Shown here piece by piece: positions 1,752 through 58,042 of a DNA stretch of 64,000 nucleotides. The stretch's first letter is position 1; each line of letters opens with the position of its first letter. The DNA comes from Hirudinaria manillensis (Eukaryota > Annelida > Clitellata > Hirudinida > Hirudinidae). The translations under genes were made by a program, and so were the position numbers. The stretch lies in assembly GCA_034509925.1 (NCBI GenBank), contig CM067529.1, forward strand, positions 8,091,501-8,155,500, written 5' to 3'. The notes beneath the pieces are model-generated. The model was not told the origin of the DNA, did no database searches, and saw only the letters and a program-made list of their open reading frames with translations.

Positions 1752-2992
1752 TTATAAGATCTTCTGTTCCATCTTCTTAACGTGGGTGGTCGATAATGGC
1801 GACGAAGTCACGTGATTACCGACGTGGTCGGGGGATGGGCTATCGATTGGACTCGTAGAAGTATCGGAGACGTTGCCATTGGTTACGACGGAAGCGGAGG
1901 CAGCCGGGCGGCTGATTGGTTGTAAGGTCTTCAGAGTGCCGTCAGTACTGCTCAGAGACGGACTCAGGAGTTCGAGTCTTTTGCTGTCTTTGAAGGACTG
2001 CAAAGCAGATTTGAATATTTCCGTTTCAGTGATGTTATTGGGGCATTTGTGGGCTTTTATTAGACCCCTCTTCATGGCGTCGGCTGCATAAATTCTTTTC
2101 CCGGTCTTGGAACTTATGTAATTCCCTGTTCCGGGATCCAGGATGCCCTTTCGAACCGCTTGCATGAATGAGGTGTAGTAGCGAAGTTTGTCGTCGTAAA
2201 CTGCCACGACGGTGAACGTTTCGCATTCGTAGATGGGATTTGAATCGTCGAAATCGGCCAAAATCCATCCATCCTCCACAGCTTCCTTCTCAGGTGTCCT
2301 GAGACCACCCTTCTCCTCGTTCACAAACTCCCCGGTTCGAGGGTCGATGAGTCCCCTTTTCCGGGCTTCGTCGACGTCCACTTTCTCTGCAGTCCGCGGG
2401 TCGAGTGCCCCCGTGATGATGTAACTTCTGTCGATTCTTTTCTTAACCGTGATTAGGGGAACGGCAGTCGTTTCCGGAAGACCCTTTTGAACGGAAGTGT
2501 ACTCCACGATGATCCTTCCTTCGGTCATGGCACGTTGTATTGGAATTCCTTCGATTCGGAAATGGAAAATGAAACGTTATCGATGCGTTCATAAACATCA
2601 ACAACGACATTGTTTTTATACGTTATTTCCTCTCTTTAAATAGAGGCATCCAAAATGAGATTTTAGAGGAATTTCTCCAAAAAGATGAAAAACACGTTCG
2701 TTTGAGTAGCACTGAGTTATTAATTAACTTATTTATTATTAATAAATTTATTTATTTATTATTATTATTTATTAATTAATTACTGTTAATTATCCCTAAT
2801 CAAATGGTTAATTAAAACAACCATCTATCGGACAATCCACCCATCGACTGGTCAGTATTGGTCATAATCATCCAACCATCACATCAATGAATATCCATCC
2901 ATACACACACAATTAATATTTTCTCCACATCAACCAATTAATCCAATCAAAACATAATAAGTGTTGCAGTGGGGTAGTAATAATAATATAAC

Positions 2993-3073
<81 letters not shown>

Positions 3074-3192
3074 TAACAACAATAATAATAATATAACAAT
3101 AATAATAATAATATAACAATAATAATAATAATAATAATAATAATATAACAATAATAATATAATAATATAATAATAATAATATAACAATAATA

Positions 3193-3224
<32 letters not shown>

Positions 3225-3876
3225 TAACAATAATAATAATAAGGATACAACAATAAATGAATAATCCAAACCTTCTCCAGTATCTGGGTTGACGTACAGA
3301 CCCTTGGAATGGTCGATGATACCCTCCGATACCGCGTATCTGAACGCCACGTGGTCTCCACTTCTCGGATCAACGACACCTTTTATGATGAACCTCTTCT
3401 TCTCCTCCTGCTTTGTTGACGTCAATTCCTCGGCGATGACCTTTCATTCGGTTTCATCATTCATTATTAATTCATTAGGCCTAATTAACATATATGCATG
3501 CATAATTTACAAGCATTCATGCATAATTGACCAACACGTGATTGGCCAGTAATTATAACTGTTATAATAATAAAAACCCCTATGATGTATGATATATGAA
3601 TGATAACCCTTTCCTCAGCAACCAATAAATCAGTCCAAAGCATTTATAAACACTACCACCAACAAAACATTTACATAAAAATAAATAGTCAATTTCATAG
3701 ACACAAGTAAATCTTTTACAAGTTAATTTTATTATTTAATAATAATAATATAATAATAATAAATATAAATACTAATAACGATGGGTGCAAGTGGATCAAG
3801 TACAAGTACTCACGTCCCAAGCACGAGTACAAGTACAAGCACCTAAAATACCAGAGTACCAAGTACCCCATCATTA

Positions 3877-36824: not shown

Positions 36825-49151
<12,327 letters not shown>

Positions 49152-50192
49152 GGCGGATGTCAGAGTAAGTCAGAATTTAACTCGCTTTAAATTTAAACGT
49201 TTTAATAAAATTAAATCTTTAAAAGTCATTAAATCATCTTAGTTCATCTCTTAGTTCGAAAACTTCCGTAGAATCCAAAAATAGGAATGATGCCTCAATT
49301 AGAGACCCAAAAAAGTATTCATGTTATCCATTGAATGCGAACCCATTGAAGCATATCGACGAATGAGTAAAGAAGAAAACTTGAAATCTCTTAAGTTGGG
49401 CCTGAGTTAGGCGTAAACTGCACGGTTTGCTATGCATAGCTAGCGGCCAGTTTATTGTGCCGTGAAAGATAAGAATCGAGAAGCACTTACCAATCAATCG
49501 GTCAGCTGTTGATTGAAAATGTTTGGTTGACGTTTCAATCGTTCCATTGAGGTTCAAGCAGCAAATTCAAGTTTTTACTAGATAACATCATATGCTCTTT
49601 TGTCTCTAATCGTTTCATTAATAATAATTTTAAGAAAAATATAATATTAATAATAATTATGGCATTAATAGTTTTTAAACATTAATTATTATATAAATAA
49701 TGCATTACATTAATTAATATAATATTTAAATATTTATCGTAATTATTATATTAATAATTGTGACTAATAATAAAATATTGTCTTAATTATTGTGTAAAAT
49801 AATACCAAACAAATCAAAATATTAAGCGCTATGCTTGTCACTGACGTAAGCACTTCTAATCATTCTGTGCACGTAAGCAGCTACACAAGAGGGACATTTT
49901 TAGCGTATGATTAATTATTTTATTTCAGGCGAATAATTTATTTATGTGTTTATTATTTTACGTGTGGAATTAGTTGTCCGGAAATTACAATACTCGAAGT
50001 TAAACTTTGAAGACGAAAATATCTTTCAAGAACCAATCAGCGTTCGAGAAAGGAATGACGTCAACAATAACAATATTAATTAGTTACGTGACGTTGATTG
50101 TGGTTGATTAATCAATAATCAATACTAAGCCAAAACACAATTTGCACAACGTGTCTAATTAAAGACTTTAAAGACGAACCGTGGTTGGTCCA
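49152..50192. other. Upstream flank of the adhesion GPCR gene
   Basis: AT-rich, no exon recognised. It should hold the GPCR promoter. The short minus-strand frame 49557-49324 has no supporting features. Confidence 0.4.
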
Positions 50193-50610: not shown

Positions 50611-53088
50611 GTACCGAGTTTTTCTGAAAATAACTCCAGGTTCAGTGAGGTCAATTGGAAATCTGCAAAGTTTCAAAATGAAGGGATTTTGAATTTGTTT
50701 AATTGAAATAACTTCACAAACGTCATTGTATGGAAGTCTTCAGAACAGACGTACAATAAGCGTACAGTACTTGTAATAAACAAACATACAAATAACGGCT
50801 GAACTAGAATACTTTGGCGAGGTGCACGTTGTGGTCTTCGATTGCAGATTTGTTTTCTAGGAGAAAATATATGTTAATTAATATTATAAGTTGATTAATA
50901 ATATAAGTTAATTGATAATATATGTTAATTAATAATATATGTTAATTAATAATGTGCATCAATTAATAAATTTAACGATTAAATCAGTACGTACACAGTA
51001 ATTGTTTATTTAATCAATTTAATCGGTTAATAAATAATAATTAATGAGTGATGACTAAAAATTATGATTACTTGAAAAAGCACGAAAGACTTTTGTTTTG
51101 AAATGATAGCCCGTGATGAACGTTGGATGTTCATTATGCATTCATTTGGATTAAAAATTTATGCAAATGAAGCGCACTACAAGCCCGTGTTTACCATTCA
51201 GCACTTCCCAATTCTGTTGTTTTTTTTTCTTTATTCATAAAAAGGGGAAACGCCTTTCATTCAAAACACCAGCGGATGTTGTGAGCAGACAATTCTAGGG
51301 CAGGTTTGACGGTAGATGTCAGTTTTAGCTATAATTTGAACACGTATTTCTCATTACTTGTACTCGGGTATAATTAAATTAATACCCCCTGGTCGATAAT
51401 ATGGACCAAATTACGATGTGGGGTCCTCATGAAAATGGTTCTTAGATTCTCCATTAATTATATCCGTAATAATGCAAAGGAATGCCCATATTGCTATCCG
51501 TTACGAACACGATTAACAATTTCAAAGTTCCGTGAAAAATCAATAAAACTTCATTGATATTCAGGACAGTCATTAACCCTTCTAGTTATAACCAACCATT
51601 TTAGCATTCGTGCAAGTTGTTTGACATGGTTGAATTTATTATTTCATTTTAATCCCTTAAATAAATTAAATAAGATATTAATTGATTCTTTAAATTGTTA
51701 CTCATTTTTTGTGTAAATTTTAAAACTTAAATCGTGCTAATCGATCTTTTAAAAATATTAATTAAATGAATTTATCTTTAAAATTAAAAATTACTAAATA
51801 GGGAATATCTTCCCGTTATTGTGCCATACACAAGTGGTTGTAACTTTCTGATGCTTAGAATACACGAACCTATTAGAATGTCCTTGTAAATGAAATTATA
51901 ATAAAATAAATTATCGAATTTACGATTAAAATTAAACTTTATTTTTAAAGGACGTAATTATTTACAGCGCTTTACAATCCTTTTAATGTCGTTTCGAAGC
52001 GTCTGTGAATCACTTCCTGCGTAACGATTAGAGCCGGAAGTCATAATTAGTTATGATATTATTTTTAGAAGTTACTTTATATTATTTAACCGCGTACAGG
52101 ACCATTAGACACATTCAAGATTAAATTTACTATTTCATTTATTGCAGGAACATTACTAAATCCATGCACTACGAGTCGTCAGCTCTTTATATTAATTACT
52201 TATTGAAGCTTTAATCCTAAACTGGGCGTTGAGCGTCGTCTCATCACCCTGCATATTTTGATGGATGGACGGACGGAGATCCATAACATCCGCACTTGTG
52301 CCGCATGTATATGTCACATAACGTTGACTCCCACCTGGTCCAACCCTTTTACAAAGAATAATAATAATATAATAAAATAATAATGTAATATAATAAAATA
52401 ATAATAATATAATAAAATAATAATGTAATATAATAAAATAATAATAATATAATAAAATAATAATGTAATATAATAAAATAATAACAACAGCAACCAATAA
52501 AACAAGCGCAAAATCCTCAACATTTTCCAAAACTTTCTGGTTGATGAGACTTTATTCTGCATCAAGTTAATGAAATAGCAGGAACAAACACTTGGACATC
52601 TTACGTCCCTTACCTTATTACCTTAAAATCACCTCGGATCATCTTCATAACAGTTTGACTCTCAACAGGGCACAAGGAATTGATACAAATATCTCTCGAC
52701 TGCCTTTCTTTCTATCGAAATCTTAGAAAAGACCATCAACAAAGTTTGTATCTTGTCTGCATCTTCAGATTGCTACCATGAATTAAACGTTAAATCCCCA
52801 TAAAAATCAAGAAAAAGTAGCATGAACTCAATGCAAATCCTATCCATATCAACAACTAATAGGAAACAAGTTCGCAAACAATAACAAGCAACTCGCAAAT
52901 ATAAAATACAATATATTATTATTATTATTATTATTTCCAAAATCACAAATATAAAGGCTTCAAGAAACAACTTCAAATAGCGTGCCGGATGCAGGCTTCT
53001 AAACAAGATCGTTTAGTTGCAAATATACAAAAATCGGGACCAAAACCAGGATGGAAAAGTAACCGAATGCCCTTCCAAAATAATGAAA
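50611..53088 (-). other. Gap with a few exon-like minus-strand pieces, unassigned
   Basis: Mostly AT-rich with TAATA arrays at 52357-52482 and a (TTA)n near 52916. Minus-strand pieces with acceptable splice edges: about 50660-50610 (FPIDLTEPGVIFRKT, acceptor TTTGCAG, donor GTACAT), about 52548-52494 (LINQKVLENVEDFALVLL, donor GTTGCT) and about 52345-52200 (GPGGSQRYVTYTCGTSADVM). I recognise no family and cannot join them in phase with confidence. Confidence 0.2.
52160..52180. repeat. 21-bp direct repeat, copy 1
   Basis: A 21-bp string containing CCATGCACTACGAGTCGTC that recurs exactly at 54480-54500 in the same orientation. The flanks do not match. Confidence 0.85.
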
Positions 53089-53296: not shown

Positions 53297-56200
53297 TCAC
53301 AAATCGATATCATCATCATCGTCGTCTTCATCATCCTCAAACTCCATCTTGGCCCTCGTCAGTTCGTCCTCAGCAGACGCCAGAGTCTTCGACCTGGTCG
53401 TGGGTCTCGTAAGTTTTCCGTCCAAAGAAAGTTCGTTGGACCTCTTCAAACCGCTCCTAATCCAACTCTTGTCGATCAATTCCACGCTCTGCCTCCTCCT
53501 CCTCCTTCTCCTCACCCCTTTCTTGACCACCTTGTGACGGGAGAAACGTCGAAATTTCTTCGACGGGTCGTCTTTCGAAGCTCTTCCGTCGACGACTCCG
53601 AAGTCGGCCTCGACTCCCCGTCGCAGACTCGACGGCGACGTGGGATCCTCGCATTTTTCCAGCACGACTTTCGGATGACTCCTTCCTTGCTCTTCCGTGC
53701 CGACCACTTTTCCCGATCTGAGGTTTATGGCGGAGGGAGGCTCCTTGATTCGAGTCTCTCTCTCCTCGTTTTCTATGAAGTCTTCGGCGCTCTCCAAAGG
53801 CTTGGCAGGACGAGGAGAATATTCTTCGGTTGCTCCTGAAATCATGTTTTTGTATTTTGTCACGTGGCTTAGAATAATAGAATGTACGAAAGTGTCGTGA
53901 ATGAAACCTAAGAAGAAGGGACCTAAGAAGTACTTAACTAGTTGAGCACTTCAAATGCTGGCAGCAATGAAAGCCAACATCATTACATAATTATAATTGC
54001 ATGTAATAGTTCCTTCAAAAATGAACAACAACCATTGGATTAATATATCGCTAGGTTCAACCCCAAACAATAATTTGAATTTATATTACACTTATAATAA
54101 TAATAATAATAATAGTAGTAATAATAATCATCACCATCATCATCACTTACTTTTCCTACATGCCTTCCTTCTCTGCTTCTTGAAGAAGTTTGTAATGCTA
54201 TTATTGTTTTGATCCATCACCTGAAACAAGATCAATCCAAATTATGAATGAATTTCAACTCCAGAACATACCGATCTATGATATCAATGCGATAACATGC
54301 AACATATAATAAACAATTGATAGAATTTCTTTCTAAGACACCTATTGACCTAACATAATGAGAGTAGAATAAAGAAAAATTATCCTCAAAATGTAAAAAA
54401 AAAACATTATTCTCGCGAATGGACTAAAAAAAAACAGAAATAGGTTTTGAGAACGCAAAAGTTAAGGACGTAGCACACCATCCATGCACTACGAGTCGTC
54501 TGCAAACTCACGTCGGATACACGAGTCCGTGTTCCACCGATCGGTTGCAAGTTTTGTTTCTCATAGGAGTTCATCGTCATGCAGGATTGGCAAGGCAGAC
54601 TAAACTCTAAAGAACTGTTAAATCTTTCTGTAGACATCTTGGGAGCAATTTTTCTCAAGCTGTGAAAGCCGTCGAGAGAGGAGTCCACGGACGAAAATTC
54701 GACGGAAGAGGAACCGAACATCTTCGCCGGAGTCAAAGGTCCTTCGCGTCCGCACGCTCGACCGGCGTCCTGCCAGGGCGCGAAGACGGAAGGAGAGGAG
54801 GCGAACTGGATGAAGTTCAAGTTTTGAACCGGAGGAATCACCAGCACGGAGGACAACGAAGTCATTCCGACCACCGGAATGTTGGTCAGCAGAACCTGAC
54901 TTTCTCGCAAGATCTCGTCTCTCCCAGGGACCGTGCATTCGAAAGGGGACTGCACGACCGGCAGGCCGTGGGATATCGACAGCATGCAGTTACCGAGGTC
55001 TGCCAAGGACGAAGAGCGATTTCGAGGAAGGAATCGGTCGAAGGGAAAGCGATTTCTAAAAGTCGAGTCGGTCCGGACGACGGAATCGGGGAAAAAGTCG
55101 GCAGAGTCGGTCCCGACGCATTTGTTGACGGCTCCGATGCAAGTTCCGATTTCGTTGTTGTTGGAATCGCAATGCACCTCCGCGTAACTACGAGGACCAT
55201 CCTTCGCACCGGAGTTTACATTCTTACCCAAGAATTCCAAACAAAACAAATCCCCTGCATCATCCTCTTCATCATCATCGTCGTCATCATCATCATCGCT
55301 CGCATCAAAAGTTCTTTCCTCGCAGCCCTTGCCGTCCGAGTCGGCATCCGCGCACTGCTCCGTGCAGCAACCCTCCGCAGGATCGAGTTTGTCATCGAAT
55401 TTACTGCTCGGCGGATCGTCGGATCTTTCTTCGGACAATTCCCTGCCGGCAAGAATCCATCCAGACTTGCCACCATCATCGTCGTCATCGTCTTCATCAC
55501 CATCATCACCGTCGTCGTGGTGTACGATAGAATCCCCATTATAAAAAAGAGGGAAATCATCCTTCACAAAACAGGATAATACCTCAGACAGTCCCTCACT
55601 TTCATCACCATCATTATCATCATCATCATCGTCATCGTCATCATCATCACCACCATCAGAGTCACGGTTCTGCAAAGAATCCACCTCTGAGCGATCGCTA
55701 GGAAATGCGCCGGCAAGCAACGTTCGGTCGGAATCTTTTCCGACGGAAGTCTCCGTTTTGCTAAAGGATCTCGTCAGAGGTCTGCGCTTCTCGACCGGAG
55801 ACGATCCCTCTCGGACGACTTTAGAAGATTTCTCGGCATTCGTAAACTCTTTGGCTTTAAGACCGGAAGGTTTCTAGAAGAACAAAGACGACGAATTGAC
55901 GTGTAATTAAAATTTAAATTAGCTAAATGAAGAACTCCCGTCAGGTGATACCCTGGCAAACGTCCCGTTGTATTTCCTACGGACTTTGTGGCCGAATGCT
56001 TTCCTGGCTCCGCTTCGAATCCCCATGAAGTCTGCAGAGCTGCAAGTCGACGGAGTATCAACGTGAGTTTTGATGTTCGAGCAGAGAATCTTGTCGAACA
56101 TTTTCAAGCTTTCGGGCATGAACGAGGTACCTGTTTCAAATTAATTTCAAATGATTTTGAATAAAATCAGATTTTAAAATTTCCACGGTTTCAGTTTTTT

Positions 56201-58042
56201 TTAAACAGAACTACCTCTGAGGCAGAGATAATCTATGAAATCTTCGGTATAAGGAACGTTCTGCAAGTCATCCTGCAAAGTACAATCAACCCTCTTCTGA
56301 AACCTTCTTCTGCTTGCAAAAGAGCCACCTCCTGGTTTGGAACCACATGCAAACTTTCTTTGAGCTCTGTACATTCCACTGAAACAAACAATATCAAGAA
56401 GTGACGGGTTAAGCACACAAATTAAGCAATTAACACGAATTAAGCAATTAATACAATGTGAAATTTGCCTGCTTCTACTTCTGCTGAATTGCACGACGCG
56501 TGTGTCCGAGACGGTTTTGCCTTCCGATCTCGTCAACTGAGGAGACAACATTTCAAGGGTTTGTTGACTGAGACCTTCAAATTTAGATTTAAATTATTCT
56601 TGTTCTCCAAAGATTCATGTTCTAAAATCTAATTCAGAAATGTGAAATTCTGAATTATCCTAAACTTAATATATTCCCAACCAATCCCCTGTTCCCTCTA
56701 AGTAGATGAAAAAAATGTCTGCAAAAATTTGCACTTGTGAACCAAAAAATGAGACCAACTACTTTTGTTTGTAAGCCTTGATTACCCGTTGCATTGCATA
56801 ATTTTAAAGTTTTTCAATAATAACATCATATTTACAATATATTTAAACATGAATTTCAAAATAATAATTCAAGTTTAATAAATATGGAAAATTAATTTGC
56901 TAAATAATCACAACAAATTAAATCATACTTCTGCCAATTTTAAGAACAATAATGAGAGGACTCATTAATTATATATAATTGATTTTCTGGATAAACAAAC
57001 AGAAATAGTGATATAAATGTGTTTATAGCAACATAAATTCCTGGAAAGAATTGTAAGTCATGAACAACTTATTGAATAGAAAATTTAATAGCTTCAAATG
57101 AATGGGTAAAGTTTTAATACATTTTTGAGTCATTATTTCATGATTAATTGTTAATTTTCTCCTATTTGCAACATAATGCTTCCTAAGGAATTCAGACATT
57201 TTTGAGGATACAAGTGTTCTAGGGTGCATAGAGACTCCATTAATGTGAAGATACATGACAAACCTCATATGCACAAGAAGAATTAATTCAATGTAATTTC
57301 AGTGAAATTTCAAAACAAAATATTTAACCTAATGCTTACCACATGGTATAGTTTTAACCTCCAAATCGTCTGACATATTGGCATCAGACCTTGAAATTCC
57401 AACATTGGAGGTACTACTTGAATCAGACTTAACTTTCTTCCTTTGCAAAGAGGCATATAAAGCTTTTTTGAGTTCTGTTTCCTCTTTCCAAGAAAGTCCA
57501 CATGCCTCAGTCTAAAATGAATCTCTAAACTGAAACTCTCTGCATATCCATTTAAACCACATTCCAACAAAATAAATATGAATTTGAAAAGATTATTCCT
57601 CATGTTGGATCACTTAATTAGTTGAAAATCAATAAACAATGAAATATAATGCTCATTGATTCTATAATCAACATAATGCTCTATAAACAAATAAGGCCAC
57701 CTTTTTTTGGAAAACATTCCTTCTGGGTCTGGAAACAAGTTTGCTGGGCAAAATTGTATCTTTACACTGAAGAGGATTAGAAGCAATATCTTTATTGCTT
57801 GCATTATTATCCACCTTCTGTGTACTGCCGATTTCCGGGCATTTAATACAAATGGTCTCAGACAAATCCACATTTTCGAGGATGGATGTTTGTTCTTCGA
57901 ACTTTCTCAAATTTGTGCTCTTAGTAGTGTAAGTGAGCCGCTTGGCTGTAACCCTTAAAACGAGTTTAGTCTGTCGAAGTTCTGGTCCACCACCAGTTTT
58001 TGTATCTTTCTTGCGACGTGAATTTGTAAGCCTTCCAGCCAT
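53297..58042 (-). CDS. JARID2-like: JARID2 N-terminal-type PRC2 cofactor lacking ARID and JmjC domains, 961 aa
   Basis: Eight minus-strand exons: 58042-57701, 57511-57340, 56536-56479, 56378-56215, 56130-55952, 55873-54512, 54220-54151, 53835-53297. Phases agree and the total is 2886 nt. Matches to vertebrate JARID2, in the same order: RPRRNVFQKK (RPKRNIIQKK), GLSWKEETELKKALYASLQ (ubiquitin-interacting helix), YRAQRKFA (AQRKFA, the Lys that PRC2 methylates and EED reads), and TEDFIDYLCLRG, then MPESLKMF (the SUZ12-contact region). A long low-complexity acidic/Ser region follows, then NSITNFFKKQRRK (PIP-box-like), an Arg-rich patch and an acidic C-terminus ending DDDDDDIDL and a stop. JmjN, ARID, JmjC and zinc finger are absent here. 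It is a likely nuclear PRC2 regulator. Homology by motif is strong. That this is the whole protein is inferred from the closed frame. Confidence 0.8.
54480..54500. repeat. 21-bp direct repeat, copy 2
   Basis: Identical to 52160-52180. This copy begins 10 bp inside the intron after the donor GTGAGT of JARID2-like exon 55873-54512. Confidence 0.85.

Follow-up and report, generated by a model that had tools for sequence, protein, structure and literature searches.

The window analyzed here, a 64,000-nucleotide stretch of the genome of the leech Hirudinaria manillensis (GCA_034509925.1, contig CM067529.1, hereafter C4, positions 8091501-8155500), carries on its reverse strand a gene that is probably a paralogue of JARID2. 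The predicted protein combines the N-terminal module that regulates Polycomb repressive complex 2 (PRC2) with an acidic, probably disordered tail. Judged by sequence comparison, JARID2 was probably duplicated and the C-terminal half lost from this copy, which retained the better-preserved PRC2 module but not the Jumonji half.

Four motifs are present in the order known from JARID2: the R.RRN..QKK start, a helix resembling a ubiquitin-interacting motif (UIM), the AQRKFA site and TEDF..YLCLRG. Searched with phmmer against 177,635 distinct PDB sequences, the module found a JARID2 chain as its best match (8vnv_B, E 4.1e-11). Protein Jumonji made up the top four and nine of the 13 sequences listed; the fifth match was a designed repeat protein, of which no individual stretch passed. 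In Smith-Waterman alignments to residues 1-179 of human JARID2, the part with the RN start and the UIM reached z 12.5 and the part with the mimic and TEDF motifs (exon 4 and the start of exon 5) reached z 14.4, with none of 1000 shuffles as good in either case. RPRRNVFQKK, which fits the N-terminal pattern R.(K/R)RN..QKK, is identical to human JARID2 at 7 of 10 positions, and the predicted UIM helix LSWKEETELKKALYASL matches human IPWSEERVVRKVLYLSL at 8 of 17. Exon 4 supplies the histone-mimic lysine within RAQRKFA, and the SUZ12-contact motif TEDF..(F/Y)LCLRG is found in TEDFIDYLCLRG. These results bear out a preliminary description of this DNA, which had recognized the four motifs in JARID2 order. 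A genome search with the module returned four matches, all of them exons of the window gene. At this similarity the module is a single copy by this search; other divergent copies may exist, because the same search missed the weaker module of a second locus on contig C6.

The gene model was drawn from the genomic sequence alone, and its eight exons run in frame from an ATG at 58042 to a TGA at 53297 (Table 1; coordinates are window positions unless a contig is given). Closure in phase to this stop agrees with the preliminary description, which counted 961 codons; our boundaries yield 978 codons with the stop counted under reading A, or 959 under reading B. The two readings diverge solely at the exon 2/3 junction, where reading A joins a strong exon 2 donor to a weak exon 3 acceptor and reading B joins a weaker donor (GAG/gttaaa) to a strong acceptor (tctcctcag). 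Six of the seven introns have a GT donor, and the one after exon 3 has a GC donor in both readings. The first ~100 residues of exon 1 gave no match to human JARID2 1-179 (z 0.9; 190 of 1000 shuffles as good). Codon use, trained on 25 of 28 eye-picked peptides that could be located (1,247 codons), supports the predicted frame in exons 5, 6, and 8 (z 2.0, 5.3, and 3.8). In exon 6 this frame ranked top of the six (0.198; the runner-up, a reverse frame, reached 0.151), and none of 1000 base shuffles of the exon stayed open for 453 codons. Left unspliced, exon 5 reads 10 further codons to a TAA at 55921-55919. One AATAAA/ATTAAA lies at 52556, on the 3' side of the gene. Pfam returned no family for the window protein or for its tail searched separately. 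The exon 7 peptide SITNFFKKQRRK is presumably similar to a PCNA-binding PIP box.

Table 1. Exons of the JARID2-like gene in the window, and KDM5-like genes elsewhere in the assembly
Feature	Position	Strand	Content
Exon 1	57701..58042	-	ATG at 58042, ~100 residues, then RPRRNVFQKK (JARID2 start); donor AAG/gtggcc
Exon 2	57340..57511	-	UIM-like helix WKEETELKKALYASL; reading A 57511-57340, reading B 57511-57359
Exon 3	56469..56574	-	Reading A 56574-56469, reading B 56536-56469; uncertain boundaries, GC donor; required for frame; no homology of its own seen
Exon 4	56215..56378	-	Histone-mimic site RAQRKFA and SUZ12-contact motif YTEDFIDYLCLRG
Exon 5	55952..56130	-	TSFMPESLKMF (JARID2-like module ends) and basic stretch; acceptor place and phase as in the C6 gene
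Exon 6	54512..55873	-	1362-base open exon, aspartate-rich
Exon 7	54151..54220	-	MDQNNNSITNFFKKQRRK; splice sites tttcag / gtaagt; codon use uninformative
Exon 8	53297..53835	-	Tail, stop TGA; codon use top of six frames, z 3.8
KDM5-like genes (at least four, by eye)	C1:12828313-12833946; C2:4431888-4437812; C3:10030578-10035176; C8:194083-197000		

The domains that follow the module in JARID2, among them an inactive JmjC, gave no matches around the gene. Genome-wide scans covered the 148.4 Mb assembly. Pfam JmjC had 22 matches in the genome, none of them in the window; two lie on C4, at least 0.96 Mb off, and neither is among the 14 genome matches to the C-terminal half of human JARID2 (residues 551-1233), none of which falls on C4. 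Likewise, none of 11 ARID and none of eight JmjN matches is on C4, and the three C5HC2 matches are on C1, C2, and C3, outside the window. The earlier statement that no JmjN, ARID, JmjC, or zinc finger could be seen down to 50.3 kb therefore holds, with the nearest JmjC on the contig about 1 Mb away. A vestigial JmjN in exon 8 was considered and rejected: the score of the human JmjN was reached by 438 of 500 shuffles and that of the C6 JmjN by 128 of 500. Exons 7-8 aligned to human JARID2 551-1233 no better than 145 of 500 shuffles, and exon 5 with the start of exon 6 aligned to the middle exon of the C6 gene no better than 461 of 500.

A second JARID2 locus is present on a different chromosome, C6. 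The best match of human JARID2 551-1233 in the genome was C6:10620711-10620872 (E 1.7e-9), accompanied by two weaker pieces on C6 in the same order (E 9.3e-4 and 0.23); the remaining 11 matches were on C1, C2, C3, and C9. With human JARID2 as a guide, exons were drawn by eye into a model that is partial at its 5' start and 3' end, with 14 exons and 748 residues uninterrupted by any stop (C6:10625996-10619987, reverse strand). Its first 13 exons have AG acceptors and GT donors except for one GC. The model contains a mimic-like RAVRKFPS, the TEDF motif YTEDFINFLCYR, and divergent JmjN, ARID, and JmjC parts, and a zinc-finger-like exon was seen by eye outside the model near C6:10619200. Its best PDB matches were three JARID2 chains (1.9e-62, 2.6e-59, and 8.2e-21), followed by plant JMJ14 (6.4e-16) and KDM5A (1.3e-15). 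Pfam matched JmjC (5.6e-21) and ARID (3.7e-9) and found neither JmjN nor C5HC2 at E 1, so these two calls rest on PDB alignment and inspection by eye. Patterns that do detect the UIM and R.RN motif of the window gene found neither in the 26 kb of C6:10624000-10649999. Within C6:10624841-10650000 there are tandem repeats of the C6 gene's 5' part, offset by 8.5-8.75 kb and 92-98% identical by segment, and the TEDF exon occurs three times (10625544, 10634001, and 10642749). The two upstream copies break off shortly before the middle exon is complete and have a common stop inside it. This genome therefore does generate truncated pieces of JARID2.

Comparison of the two loci suggests how they arose. 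Both genes interrupt the coding sequence after the TEDF exon at an identical place and in an identical phase (phase 1), and their N-modules align at z 8.6 (none of 500 shuffles as good). The window gene is nearer to human JARID2 than the C6 gene in the mimic (6 of 8 identical residues versus 4 of 8) and in the TEDF block (12 of 24 versus 9 of 24); outside the TEDF block, the two copies have little similarity. JARID2 was thus probably duplicated in the ancestry of this leech, after which the window copy would have shed the JmjN-ARID-JmjC-zinc-finger half, or never gained it, and the C6 copy would have retained most of the C-terminal half while its N-module diverged. We infer loss of the C-terminal half after duplication because JARID2 has both halves in other animals. 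The preliminary description had proposed fission or domain loss and suggested looking for a separate gene with the ARID/JmjC half. Such a gene was found on C6, but it is more than the missing half. Since it also has a mimic-like site, a TEDF motif, and the common intron place and phase, duplication is favored over simple fission, while the proposal of a JARID2-derived, putatively PRC2-binding module without ARID or JmjC, in a genome with SUZ12, EED, and EZH, is retained.

Several observations weigh against this interpretation. The N-region of the C6 gene bears only a weak resemblance to human JARID2 (z 4.0; 5 of 1000 shuffles as good) and its TEDF piece scored -2.0 bits in the phmmer alignment, so the case for common ancestry of the two N-modules depends chiefly on the TEDF block and the intron phase. 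No similarity was found between the window tail and the C6 middle exon (103 of 500 shuffles as good), no trace of JmjN in exons 7-8, and no homologue of exons 6-8. The model itself has a GC donor at one intron and an exon 2/3 junction that can be read in two ways, and codon use favors another forward frame in exons 1, 2, 3, and 7 and is neutral in exon 4. On the side of the partner complex, the 30-residue Pfam model EZH2_WD-Binding had no genome match at E 0.1.

Other explanations were weighed. It is somewhat unlikely that the N-module is real in a protein that is shorter or otherwise ended, either at the stop at 55921-55919 or with exons 6-8 belonging to another transcript, in which case the proposed function would hold and the acidic tail would not. 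The in-frame TAA only 10 codons past the exon 5 donor and the tail without detected homology would fit such an ending, but the frame that splicing requires stays open through 454 codons of exon 6, and the predicted frame is the best of six in exons 6 and 8. The preliminary description noted that a second JARID2 locus could reveal the window gene as a decayed copy. That locus exists, with the domains missing here, and the two tandem partial 5' copies on C6 with their common middle-exon stop demonstrate that truncation occurs in this genome. Nevertheless, it appears quite doubtful that the window gene is a truncated duplicate turning into a pseudogene, as all eight exons are open and its module is nearer to human JARID2 than that of C6. 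The little similarity outside the TEDF block would also suggest an old duplication, by which time a dead copy should have decayed.

The location of the two halves on different contigs could instead mean that a single protein is made from both, with one JARID2 gene parted between C4 and C6 by trans-splicing or by an assembly break. Spliced leaders exist in some invertebrates. This explanation is hardly credible, however, because the C6 gene has its own mimic-like/TEDF exon joined in phase to its own JmjN-ARID-JmjC exons and needs no C4 half. Both loci also lie deep inside long contigs (C6 spans 11.46 Mb, and the window begins at 8.1 Mb of C4), and the assembly was built from HiFi and Hi-C data, according to a section of PMC10671345. 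Finally, the strong divergence between the window and C6 copies could reflect a gene with the N-module only that is ancient in annelids or more widely and stood alongside a two-half JARID2 long before leeches. This is unlikely; our analysis found no counter-evidence, while the relevant part of a review has a single Jarid2 in the fly and JARID2 in mammals (PMC8864842).

Under the preferred interpretation, a JARID2 paralogue reduced to its N-terminal module, a partner complex is expected, and genes for SUZ12, EED, and EZH are present in the genome as for a PRC2.2-type cofactor. The SUZ12 VEFS domain matched at C10:190999-191513, eight of 14 EED matches were collinear at C5:7544601-7547345, and five of 20 EZH CXC-SET matches fell at C13:1331338-1333497, with pre-SET/SET pieces present. 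In the proposed mechanism, TEDFIDYLCLRG would dock on SUZ12, the lysine of RAQRKFA would be methylated by PRC2 and then read by EED to switch the enzyme on, and the RN/UIM segment would read histone H2A ubiquitylated by Polycomb repressive complex 1 (PRC1). Expression, binding, methylation, and activation are all predicted steps. The outcome would be a PRC2.2-type cofactor independent of a DNA-binding ARID or Jumonji fold. In the relevant passages of PMC8864842, JARID2 K116 is methylated by PRC2 and bound by EED, and JARID2 contacts SUZ12. In mouse, as described in sections of PMC5133711, Jarid2 fragments from the N-terminus, whether or not they include JmjN, restore trimethylation of histone H3 lysine 27 (H3K27me3) fully, a JmjN-ARID-JmjC-ZF fragment does not, and deletion of the UIM largely abolishes recognition of H2AK119u1 chromatin. 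An N-only cofactor is plausible because H3K27me3 recovers with the N-terminal fragments by themselves but not with the C-terminal one; the window gene looks like a natural counterpart of the N-terminal fragments.

Comparison with known systems places the window gene closest to the PRC2.2 cofactor JARID2/Jumonji. Both have the RN..QKK start, UIM, AQRKFA, and TEDF..LCLRG in the same order, corresponding to the human 1-180 region, whereas the window gene has no JmjN, ARID, JmjC, or C5HC2 match, ~100 extra residues before the module, and a tail without detected homology. The 450-residue JARID2 chain in PDB 6wkr and bench constructs of the Jarid2 N-terminus (1-530 and others, in the sections of PMC5133711 cited above) similarly have the module for PRC2 binding and ubiquitin reading but no Jumonji half; these constructs are artificial, whereas the leech version is apparently gene-encoded. 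The halves of JARID2 are also naturally separated in human cells as deltaN-JARID2, but there, by the part of PMC6356158 that treats it, the C-terminal half is produced by proteolysis, unlike the leech N-terminal half, which would have its own gene. The PRC2 accessory proteins PALI1/2, EPOP, and SKIDA1 are not described with Jumonji domains in the corresponding part of PMC8864842, and PALI1 carries a methyl-lysine mimic. Unlike the window gene, they are not JARID2-derived and are PRC2.1 partners, with PALI1/2 described there as vertebrate and EPOP as mammalian. The portions of the literature covered on JARID2 duplication, loss, isoforms, and annelids did not describe an N-only JARID2 gene, and by title and opening abstract lines none of the papers pairing JARID2 with annelids dealt with annelid JARID2.

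Additional loci were found that are related to JARID2 or neighbor the window gene. Loci with JmjN, JmjC, and C5HC2 on C1, C2, and C3 were considered as the missing JARID2 half and are read as KDM5 paralogues; by eye, they have a KDM5-type JmjC (HIEDHW or HTEDHW, then GEPKTWYGVPG) and PHD-like fingers, and ARID was above the cut-off at the C1 and C2 loci. Two further candidates were rejected: C8:194083 is a degenerate KDM5-like gene with a degenerate JmjC, and C2:4973046 duplicates part of a KDM5 JmjN exon. In the window, a retroelement of the long interspersed nuclear element type (RVT_1 3.2e-24 and zf-RVT 3.2e-7, Pfam) lies at 42125-44879 on the forward strand, ~8.4 kb past the 3' end of the JARID2-like gene. 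On the reverse strand, a gene at 47559-49169 contains immunoglobulin-like stretches (I-set 8.5e-5 and Ig_3 7e-4, both under the Pfam cut-offs) and cysteine patterns that by eye resemble chitin-binding domains, for which Pfam gave no match. Frames at 1752-3443 and 36825-37433, also on the reverse strand, resemble by eye plectin-type repeats and a transmembrane segment like that of adhesion G-protein-coupled receptors. Contig C23 is the 15,581-base mitochondrial genome, with COX1 readable in the invertebrate code; it looks leech-like and has the cox1-trnN order of annelids. A nuclear COX1 match of equal score and length at C9:3026446-3027786 is either mitochondrial DNA recently inserted into the nuclear genome or a join made during assembly.

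Herein, the two loci raise the tentative possibility that this leech has divided the two JARID2 activities between separate genes. The window gene might be a dedicated, H2A-ubiquitin-reading, self-activating PRC2 cofactor, and the UIM-less C6 gene might act through ARID and JmjC largely apart from PRC1-guided recruitment. The function of the JARID2 Jumonji domain is called unknown in the part of PMC8864842 concerned with it. If the split is true, the leech would offer a natural, gene-encoded equivalent of the N- and C-terminal fragments hitherto obtained by truncation or proteolysis. With the PRC2-regulating and Jumonji halves in separate genes, each could be removed alone, and no truncations would be needed.

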